DNA of 64,000 bases, from assembly GCA_012032285.1 (NCBI GenBank), contig JAAURJ010000005.1, forward strand, positions 1 through 64,000, given 5' to 3'. Origin of the DNA: Sphingomonadales bacterium. GTDB lineage: Bacteria > Pseudomonadota > Alphaproteobacteria > Sphingomonadales > Sphingomonadaceae. Of this stretch, positions 19,799-45,233 are shown piece by piece. Every line of letters starts with the position of its first letter. The stretch's first letter is position 1. The position numbers and the translations under genes were made by a program. The notes under the pieces are model-generated. The model saw nothing but the letters and a program-made list of their open reading frames with translations, had not been told where the DNA came from and ran no database searches.

Positions 19799-19827
19799 CG
19801 GATGCCCGCGCCGCGCCTATTCGCACA

Positions 19828-20018
19828 GCCGATGTCCGGTCCTGTGTAACAACGGGATAATAGGGAAGCCGGTGGGAGCATATAGCTTGAATCCGGGACT
19901 GTCCTCGCAACTGTGATCGGCGAGCGATGGCTTCATATTGCCACTGGAGCAATCCGGGAAGGCGAGGCCAAAGCATTGACCCGAAAGTCAGGAGACCTGC
20001 CGGCGCATCGTCGTTATC
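19828..20018 (+). ncRNA. Cobalamin riboswitch
   Basis: GGGAAGCCGGTG ... ATCCGGGACTGTCCTCGCAACTGTG ... AGTCAGGAGACCTGCC B12-box elements, just upstream of btuB. Confidence 0.92.
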
Positions 20019-20116
20019 CACGCGGTCGAGGGGTGCCGAGCGGAGGGGATTATGGCCCATGCCATAGCTTCTGTGACGACAGAATATGTCGTTAAACACA
20101 GGAGCAAGACTTTATA

Positions 20117-39544: not shown

Positions 39545-40390
39545 ATGAAATATAGCAATTCATTCAAAAATGCTGCTTTACCGGTTATGGCCTTGCTCGC
39601 CCTTGCCGCCTGCAAATAGGCTGAGGCACCCGCAGATGGCGGTGAAAGCAATGCGGTTTCAGCAGAGGGAGAAACGAAGCCGGAAAAAGCCGCCTGGGGA
39701 TATGGCGAGGCTGATGGTCCGGCCAAATGGGGCGATTTGTCACCGGAATATGCAACCTGCAAAACCGGTAAGGAACAATCGCCATTAGACCTGCCACCCA
39801 CCGATAAAGCCAAAACTATCGATGTCGCCACCAATTATGCAGTCAAAAACGGTGCTATCGAAAATGACGGACATGGTATAAAGGCAAGTTTCGAAAAAGG
39901 CTTTACCCTGACATCAGGGGATAAGAGTTATGACCTGCTGCAATTCCATTTCCACACGCCTTCGGAAAATCTGTTTGGCGGTAAAGCATCGCCCGCCGAT
40001 GTCCACTTTGTGCATTCCGATGCCAATGGCAATCTCGCTGTGCTGGGCGTGATGATCAATGAAGGTGCGGCCAGCCCGCAAATGCAGGCAATCTTAGATG
40101 ACCAAAAAACTTTAGAGATCATCTCAGTTGGTGCGGCCAGCCCGCAAATGCAGGCAATCTTAGATAATATTGGTGGTAAGACCGACCTTGATTTGAAAGC
40201 CATGCTGCCTGCATCCATGACTGCATATAATTTTAAAGGCTCGCTGACCACTCCGCCATGCAGCGAAGGGGTGAACTGGCACGTTTTGACCACTCCTGTC
40301 ACTGCGAGCAAGGAGCAGATAGAGGCGCTTAACAAAATCACAGGTAACAATGCGCGTCCGGTGCAACCTTTGAATGAACGCGCGATTTAG
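39545..40390 (+). pseudogene. Alpha-carbonic anhydrase lipoprotein with in-frame amber codon and internal 66-bp duplication
   Basis: Single frame: MKYSNSFKNAALPVMALLALAACK*AEAPADGG...WGYGEADGPAKWGDL...LLQFHFHTPSENLF...LTTPPCSEGVNW. TAG at 39617-39619. Confidence 0.85.
40064..40165 (+). repeat. Direct repeat of 36 nt, 66-nt period, inside the carbonic anhydrase gene
   Basis: GGTGCGGCCAGCCCGCAAATGCAGGCAATCTTAGAT at 40064-40099 and 40130-40165. Confidence 0.97.
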
Positions 40391-43137: not shown

Positions 43138-43176
43138 TCAACCTAGGTTGACTTTTGTTGCCAGTTTGGTTATATA
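43138..43176 (+). promoter_or_regulatory. Promoter with overlapping perfect 14-bp palindrome
   Basis: TCAACCTAGGTTGA palindrome (43138-43151) overlaps -35 TTGACT (43148-43153); 17-nt spacer; -10 TATATA (43171-43176). Confidence 0.6.
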
Positions 43177-43187
43177 AATTTTATCCA

Positions 43188-43253
43188 GTCCCCGGTTTGC
43201 CGTCTTGAGGCGCTCGAAAGAGCAGATATCAGCTCAAGGCCGCTCCCGGGGAC
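43188..43253 (+). ncRNA. Structured leader or small RNA upstream of the NYN gene
   Basis: GTCCCCGG/CCGGGGAC closing stem, nested GTCTTGAG/CTCAAGGC stem, GCTC-GAAA-GAGC tetraloop hairpin, then AATTTTTT. Confidence 0.5.
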
Positions 43254-43271
43254 AATTTTTTGGAAAATATT

Positions 43272-43985
43272 ATGGCTACTGCAATATTGGTAGATGGAGC
43301 CTTTTTTTTAAGACGGTTCAAACATTGTTTTCCAGACCATAAAAGAGAAGACCCAGTCAGCGTTGCGCATGGATTAATGCTGCTTGTCCATTGGCATATG
43401 GCATTACGCATAGGTCCGTCGCAAATAACACAGCAAATCTCTAATAATGGGCCTCAATTGCTGGAGACGCCAAGCCTATACCGTATATTTTTCTATGATT
43501 GTCCACCACTTACAAAGCGGATGCACAAGCCTATAAGCCAAACTTCTATAGTATTTAGTAAAACCGAAGATGCGATTTTTAGAATCGCATTACATGAGGA
43601 AATTCAAAAACTTCGTAAATTGGCAATTCGCTTGGGCCGTTTAAATGACACTTCCAAATGGCGCTTGAGTGAACAAGCAACTGCACGATTGATTAAAGAT
43701 CCAACATTATTCGTTCCTACAGATGACGATTTTGAAATTGATACGAAACAAAAAGGGGTCGATATGCGACTGGGCTTAGACGTTGCCTCTCTTGCATTCA
43801 AACGCCAAGTTGACCAAATTGTAATCGTAGCTGCTGATGCTGACTTTGTGCCAGCCGCTAAACTAGCAAGGCGCGAAGGTATTGACATTGTTTTGGATAG
43901 AATGAGCGATCACAGAGCAGCCAAAGACCTTATTGAACACGTAGATGGAATAAGAGACTGCTTTTTACCCAAACCCTATGATTGA
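43272..43985 (+). CDS. NYN (PIN-like) domain protein, putative ribonuclease
   Basis: AILVDGAFFLRR, KGVDMRLGLDVASLAFKRQVDQIVIVAADADFVPAAKLARREGIDIVL. Locally AT-rich. Confidence 0.82.
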   Translation: MATAILVDGAFFLRRFKHCFPDHKREDPVSVAHGLMLLVHWHMALRIGPSQITQQISNNGPQLLETPSLYRIFFYDCPPLTKRMHKPISQTSIVFSKTEDAIFRIALHEEIQKLRKLAIRLGRLNDTSKWRLSEQATARLIKDPTLFVPTDDDFEIDTKQKGVDMRLGLDVASLAFKRQVDQIVIVAADADFVPAAKLARREGIDIVLDRMSDHRAAKDLIEHVDGIRDCFLPKPYD

Positions 43986-43991
43986 AAATTG

Positions 43992-45233
43992 ATGATGCAG
44001 ATTCCCGGAAATATTGATCCTGTTGTTACGCCCCGTGTCATTACGCCGCGCAAGGATGGGCGTGTTGATTTGCTGGGCCTTACCCATTTGCAGATTCAAC
44101 AGACGCTGGCGGAATCGCAGATGGATGCAAAGACGGCGAAGCTGCGATCAAAGCAGATATTCCATTGGATATATCACCGCGGCGTTACCGAATTTGCCGA
44201 CATGACCGACATTAAAAAAGAAATGCGCCCCTGGCTGGAGCAGCGCTTTGTAATTGGCCGCCCCCATGTTGTGCAGGAACAAATTTCCGGCGACGGCACG
44301 CGCAAATGGCTCTTGCGCAGCGATGATGATCAGAAATTTGAAATGGTCTTCATCCCCGATGCGGACCGGGGAACGCTCTGCATCAGCTCCCAGGTTGGAT
44401 GCACGCTCAACTGCCGTTTCTGCCACACCGGCACGATGCGGCTGGTGCGCAATTTGACGCCGGGGGAAATAGTGGGTCAGGTAATGCTCGCCCGCGACAG
44501 CCTTGGCGAATGGCCAAGGGGCAATATGGCGGTGCCCGGCGCCGATGAAGAGGATGACGAGATCGGCCATTATAGCGCCGATGGTCGGATGTTGACCAAC
44601 ATTGTGCTGATGGGCATGGGCGAGCCGCTGTATAATTTCGACAATGTCCGTGATGCGATGAAGATCGTTATGCATGGCGATGGCCTTGCCCTGTCGCGGC
44701 GACGGATCACGCTTTCGACTTCGGGCGTGGTGCCGATGATGACACGGGCAGGGGAGGAGATTAACGTCAACCTCGCCGTATCGCTGCACGCGGTGACCAA
44801 GGAAATCCGAGACGAGATTGTGCCGCTGAACCGCAAATATGGTATCGAAGAGCTGCTTCAGGCCTGTGCCGATTATCCCGGTATTTCCAACGCCCGCCGC
44901 CTGACATTTGAATATGTCATGTTAAAGGACAAGAATGACAGCGATGAAGACGCCTATGAATTGATCCGATTGATCCGTAAATATAATCTGCCTGCGAAGG
45001 TTAATCTGATACCCTTTAACCCATGGCCGGGTTCGCCCTATGAATGTTCGTCACCGGAACGGATTAAACGTTTTTCCAGCATTATTTTCGAAGCGGGGAT
45101 TAGCGGCCCTGTCCGAACGCCGCGGGGACGTGATATCATGGCGGCCTGCGGGCAATTGAAATCGTCATCCGAGAAAAAAAGCCGCGCCGAGCTTGACCGG
45201 CTCGCCGAAGAGAAATTGGCGGCGCTGAATTAG
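43992..45233 (+). CDS. rlmN: 23S rRNA (adenine2503-C2)-methyltransferase
   Basis: [11 protein letters not shown] radical SAM motif, [34 protein letters not shown]. Confidence 0.96.

Follow-up and report, generated by a model that had tools for sequence, protein, structure and literature searches.

Why should a ribonuclease-type gene in a sphingomonad genome be preceded by a promoter, a strongly folded RNA and a terminator, and what would such an RNA do to the enzyme encoded just after it? These questions are raised by a locus in the window, i.e., the whole stretch of 64,000 nucleotides analysed here. The initial annotation had proposed either a small RNA or an autoregulatory leader, tied in some way to the NYN ribonuclease gene that follows.

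The locus and its nuclease

The sequence elements on which this proposal relied (promoter, P1, P2, P3, six-T run and NYN start) were all found in place on the forward strand. The promoter of the RNA, recognised from the sequence and from promoter scores over 79 loci, is of the sigma-70 type (43148..43176), with a -35 box TTGACT (43148-43153), a 17-nt spacer and a -10 box TATATA (43171-43176). The structured small RNA that follows, with predicted ends at 43183 and 43261, comprises a 5' AUCC, the helices P1, P2 and P3 and an intrinsic terminator with six U residues; its delineation is based on the covariance model R3, covariation and minimum free energy (MFE). P1, the terminator stem, pairs GTCCCCGG (43188-43195) with CCGGGGAC (43246-43253) and encloses the two other helices, both recognised from sequence, fold and covariation: P2, in which GTCTTGAG (43202-43209) pairs with CTCAAGGC (43233-43240), and P3, a GCTC-GAAA-GAGC hairpin (43212-43223). 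The hairpin 43188-43253 has an MFE of -35.9 kcal/mol (z -4.75), and none of 200 shuffled sequences folded as well. With an 8-bp GC-rich P1 and a T6 tract (43256-43261) starting 2 nt after the stem, it has the features of an intrinsic terminator, and a U-rich tail follows P1 in nearly all relatives; a simple terminator scanner, which permits short loops only, overlooked it.

The ATG of the NYN gene, at 43272, lies 18 nt past this stem. The gene (43272..43985) encodes a 237-aa NYN-domain ribonuclease (P0001), a putative toxin, and the next gene downstream is rlmN (43989..45233). The G+C content of the NYN gene is about 41%, against 50-60% in the flanking genes (window 43200-44000). PF01936 was the only Pfam family above cut-off (35.6 bits vs 24.2), and the protein matched PHROG 5783 (E 8e-73), a group of unknown function. 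Six aspartates (D8, D76, D164, D170, D189, and D191) are invariant among 42 homologues. The predicted structure (pLDDT 91.4) had a single significant PDB match, 2QIP (VPA0982); we found neither a solved structure nor a published function for the PHROG 5783 subfamily. Ribonuclease activity is predicted from membership of the NYN family.

The promoter had also been described as controlled by a 14-bp palindrome. The perfect palindrome does exist at 43138-43151, but its role as an operator found no support: the window contains four perfect 14-bp palindromes against 7.7 expected, and this one is missing from L002, the homologue from the same genus, and from other sphingomonads. The statement that the RNA belongs to no recognised riboswitch family held: searches of Rfam 15 gave no match at these hairpins, whether in the window and 12 phage and plasmid loci (gathering score) or in 11 relatives (E <= 1), which speaks against a known riboswitch or small RNA. 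Elsewhere in the window, we observed a cobalamin riboswitch (19820-20019, forward strand, 114 bits) and a carbonic-anhydrase-like ORF (39737-40390, forward strand) with an internal near-duplicate segment, ASPQMQAILD occurring twice.

A family of terminator-ended hairpins

We compared the regions upstream of 80 NYN proteins obtained by a genome-wide protein search. Nearly all were preceded by a hairpin of 50-70 nt with a GC-rich closing stem and a U tract, usually located 6-63 nt 5' of the start codon. In the alignment of the non-sphingomonad RNAs, an internal loop 5'-CAGUAM / 5'-CGARCC was nearly invariant and the terminal loop contained AUC. RNAalifold predicted 10 pairs for this alignment, with compensatory changes in nine. 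Among 62 sequences, all 10 modelled pairs varied on both sides, with 92.9% of cells paired. The covariation score of this alignment was 0.479 vs 0.171 after shuffling, with 0 of 500 shuffles reaching the observed value, and it collapsed in slid registers; the alignment had been fitted to the structure, but the effect of both controls was nonetheless large. Related hairpins covary across phyla and the hairpin is not a product of chance. The stable structured RNA of the initial annotation is supported by its folding energy and this strong covariation in relatives, and the stem, far from being confined to one genome, occurs in many.

The sphingomonad RNAs form a distinct subtype with a longer P2, the additional P3 hairpin and, in most cases, loss of the AGUA loop; two G-C pairs replace this loop in the window RNA. 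In the sphingomonad alignment (A4), 5 of 20 pairs varied on both sides and 99.3% of cells were paired, and compensatory changes were present in P1 and P2 of L002. The covariance model R3, built from sphingomonads, scored 104 bits at 43183-43263, the window being part of its training set. R3 also matched five other loci, L036 (47 bits), L055, L032, L107, and L084, all of them matched by R1 or R2 as well, and the RNAs of the sphingomonads L017 and L024 combine sphingomonad stems with the AGUA/GAR loop. The sphingomonad subtype can thus be joined to the main family, R1 itself not matching the RNA of the window. A third subtype, with the loop CAAUUGUUA or a close variant, was found in enteric phages and their relatives. 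In the protein tree, the nucleases associated with the sphingomonad and enteric subtypes formed one clade each.

The transcription signals are also shared. Over 79 loci, promoter scores averaged 11.3; shuffled sequences averaged 8.3 (sd 1.6), and displaced positions gave 6.8-8.6. In 52 of the 79, a distance of 11-12 nt separated the end of the -10 box from P1. Given this fixed distance, transcription is expected to begin at the conserved AUCC and, judging from these signals, to finish in the RNA's intrinsic terminator, ahead of the nuclease gene. A terminator-like hairpin preceded the gene in 91% of the 79 loci scored in the viral set (80 NYN loci), compared with 7% of 470 control genes. A terminator hairpin that has a dedicated promoter is expected to yield a free small RNA of about 75 nt, together with some read-through into the NYN gene.

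The RNA is located directly upstream of one NYN subfamily, PHROG 5783, and the pair is present in Pseudomonadota, Acidobacteriota, Planctomycetota, Lentisphaerota, Bacillota prophages and conjugative plasmids. Model R2 detected the RNA upstream of the gene in most of the 80 viral loci, and a reciprocal search by RNA sequence pattern alone retrieved nine viral loci, eight of them with NYN immediately next. Within the sphingomonad family, RNA and nuclease occurred in the same four of 101 genomes (2.4e-7 under random placement). In a wider set of 398 genomes from the phylum, 15 had the RNA, 21 the NYN gene and nine both (Fisher p 2e-9, uncorrected for relatedness); this genome-scale RNA search has low sensitivity, and when the loci were inspected directly, the share with RNA rose to 13 of 15 in the close NYN subfamily. 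The tie between RNA and NYN gene suggested at the outset extends to most chromosomal, prophage and plasmid members.

The surroundings of the pair are variable. Temperate phages and conjugative plasmids are among the carriers of the nuclease. In lambdoid phages its gene occupies the interval from repressor to N, the position of rexAB in lambda; in phage Javan85 it is beside the integrase; in a Thermus plasmid it is flanked by a helicase and an N6 methylase, and in a Campylobacter plasmid it follows an SNF2 protein. On these two plasmids (L095 and L096) the NYN gene adjoins large helicase/methylase-type genes, and the RNA of the Campylobacter copy is degenerate or absent. In Moraxella phage Mcat4, isrK and C4 antisense RNA matches lie just after the NYN gene (L097:4792-4979). 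Among 120 neighbouring proteins, no family had more than three members and a few were defence genes. No conserved gene partner other than the RNA was found outside sphingomonads and Dyella. In sphingomonads, rlmN was directly downstream in 20 of 20 loci from genome contigs and in L110, L112, and L240; it was not found at this position in L002 and L241. The RNA-NYN-rlmN order is fixed in this group, and not elsewhere, yet few members of the family have the module. The window copy is a chromosomal module before rlmN with a derived RNA subtype.

From sequence, then, the locus is a dedicated promoter, a conserved terminator-ended RNA and an NYN gene with intact predicted catalytic acids, and the RNA-NYN pair appears as a unit that has stayed linked in different phyla, in prophages and on plasmids, although the surrounding genes are unrelated.

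Possible roles of the RNA

We favour, with a probability of roughly 0.6, a type III-like toxin-antitoxin module in which the RNA would be the antidote and the NYN nuclease the toxin, the binding, toxicity and neutralisation being those expected from this type of arrangement. Most transcription would halt at the terminator and produce an excess of free RNA (about 75 nt in the window), while a minority of transcripts would read through and allow the nuclease to be made. The RNA would bind the nuclease and keep it inactive. If host transcription were disturbed, e.g., because a phage infects the cell or the element is lost, RNA levels would fall, and the freed nuclease could cut cellular RNA and stop growth. 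The module is often on mobile elements, and its role is probably phage defence or maintenance of the element.

Loci in which the nuclease is broken bear on this reading. The RNA persists beside an NYN remnant directly after it in G062, beside a pseudogene with five stops in G440 (one of the four sphingomonad-family genomes above), where it is still recognisable, and in an E. coli O157:H7 strain, in which IS1203 interrupts the prophage NYN gene and leaves the RNA intact (L146). More generally, NYN DNA was detected in 274 of 5,426 E. coli genomes and the RNA in all 274; the full gene was present in 73 of these carriers and most of the others kept the 5' part only, which in L146, the one examined, is due to the IS insertion. 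The E. coli copies are near-identical and therefore count as few independent events.

Other observations fit less well. Six genomes of the phylum carry the RNA without an NYN match; apart from G062, these are orphans. A few orphan RNAs do not fit the module, including a second good copy (48.7 bits) at L186:3442-3503, which lies downstream of the NYN gene and immediately precedes an integrase-like ORF. The RNA is missing from more distant NYN relatives, which also counts against the module, as does the scarcity of known defence genes among the neighbours. The fixed site before rlmN in sphingomonads looks more like that of a domesticated gene than that of a mobile toxin. The main difficulty comes from ten loci of Dyella and relatives, where the nuclease occupies a fixed locus without the RNA. 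In its place stands a ATAAGGATTYCCTATG start region with strong conservation, and a search there for another conserved RNA ending in a terminator yielded only a weak hairpin lacking a U tract. The Dyella NYN is catalytically intact, so that the RNA is not strictly required. This nuclease branches beside that of the RNA-bearing L036, and the absence of the RNA therefore looks like a secondary loss. Two RNA copies were observed in other settings: a strong orphan (67 bits), from one of the six genomes above, between hsdM-like and hsdS-like ORFs in L129 (G184), where the NYN gene is absent, and the second copy in G157 (L133), which precedes an ORF similar to a DUF2281-type antitoxin.

The alternative that survives best, although we consider it rather unlikely, is a cis-acting autoregulatory leader, in which the hairpin would be an attenuator in the NYN mRNA, bound or cleaved by NYN to set its own level, with no trans-acting RNA. 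In its favour, wherever both occur the RNA immediately precedes the gene in cis, and NYN expression needs read-through. Base pairing between the 5' AUCC and the Shine-Dalgarno region is possible in the window RNA and in a single sphingomonad clade, but was rejected as a general mechanism (p 0.075). That the promoter is placed precisely where the RNA begins, and a terminator where it ends, argues for a stable free RNA rather than a leader, as do the orphan RNAs that persist without an intact NYN gene, and the nearest precedent, RCd22, binds directly in trans as well as in cis (PMC12373285). Of the two possibilities initially raised for the RNA, the small RNA is thus expected and autoregulation could occur, but an RNA-antitoxin module agrees better with the distribution and architecture of the pair. 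If the hairpin were a leader only, it would still be a widespread, unrecorded RNA element.

A more specific version of the antitoxin reading, which we regard as improbable, is that the RNA is a substrate mimic. The PIN toxin VapC20 cleaves the sarcin-ricin loop of 23S rRNA. The strands 5'-CAGUAM / 5'-CGARCC of the main subtype are typical of the AGUA/GAA bulged-G motif (sarcin-ricin loop / loop E), a likeness judged by eye only and for a motif absent from the subtype of the window. The AGUA/GAR loop would then copy the bulged-G module of 23S rRNA, the NYN toxin would cleave that loop and the RNA would act as a decoy. If so, it would represent a new class of RNA-antitoxin module across several phyla and their phages.

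Two last possibilities seem very unlikely. A riboswitch-like sensor, in which a small molecule or some other factor recognised by the conserved internal and terminal loops would control termination and so trigger NYN expression, could explain the conserved unpaired nucleotides (AGUA/GAR, AUCC) within a terminator stem, but essentially one kind of gene accompanies the RNA in many hosts and phages, an unsystematic look revealed no competing antiterminator, and the sphingomonad subtype keeps the arrangement though its AGUA loop is lost. An active ribonucleoprotein, with the RNA as scaffold or specificity factor of the nuclease instead of inhibitor, would agree with the close and lasting association between this RNA and a single nuclease and with RNA subtypes that track nuclease clades, but not with the lack of a hypervariable guide-like segment in the alignments, the orphan RNAs beside broken nucleases, which suit an antidote better, or the Dyella nuclease, which has intact catalytic residues and no RNA.

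Comparison with known systems

In the open literature, with few subscription papers covered, we found nothing on NYN proteins with a structured RNA, an RNA antitoxin, prophages or defence. The RNA family is absent from Rfam, and the RNA-NYN pair has the appearance of a so far undescribed toxin and its RNA antidote. If this is correct, the NYN fold would join the RNA-controlled nucleases, PHROG 5783 and the NYN genes at the rexAB position of lambdoid prophages would gain a function, and these loci would be compact candidates for phage-defence tests.

The protein resembles the NYN/LabA-like nucleases (PF01936; VPA0982, PDB 2QIP) in its NYN fold and catalytic acids. In gene order, the locus resembles the type III systems ToxIN, CptIN, and TenpIN, in which an RNA gene, a terminator and an endoribonuclease gene follow each other on plasmids, in prophages and on chromosomes. 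However, the ToxN fold differs from the NYN fold, and ToxI is a tandem-repeat pseudoknot RNA, whereas the RNA in the window and the alignments is single-copy and forms one nested hairpin. We looked for both the ToxN fold and a repeat RNA; as they are absent, we call the locus type III-like and do not place it in the ToxIN family. ToxIN acts in phage defence (PMC5772629). The AvcID system, in which the enzyme is a deaminase and not an NYN nuclease, shows that an RNA antitoxin can also hold back an enzyme with no relation to ToxN (PMC10511110).

The closest likeness is with AbiF/RCd22 of a Clostridioides difficile prophage, where a SigA promoter drives a short RNA ending in an intrinsic terminator, with read-through into a toxic nuclease, and where RCd22 neutralises AbiF by direct binding in cis and in trans (PMC12373285). 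Both systems consist of a promoter, a terminator-ended small RNA and a ribonuclease-type gene, and both are found in prophages. They differ in the toxin, which is a HEPN protein (Abi_2) in AbiF and an NYN protein here, and in that binding was demonstrated for AbiF/RCd22 and is inferred here. The RNAs also differ: the abiF RNA motif (Rfam RF03085) of that system was matched neither in the window and the 12 phage and plasmid loci (gathering score) nor in the 11 relatives (E <= 1). It is this same anatomy, with another nuclease fold and another RNA, that leads us to favour an RNA-antitoxin module over a leader, a sensor or an active ribonucleoprotein.
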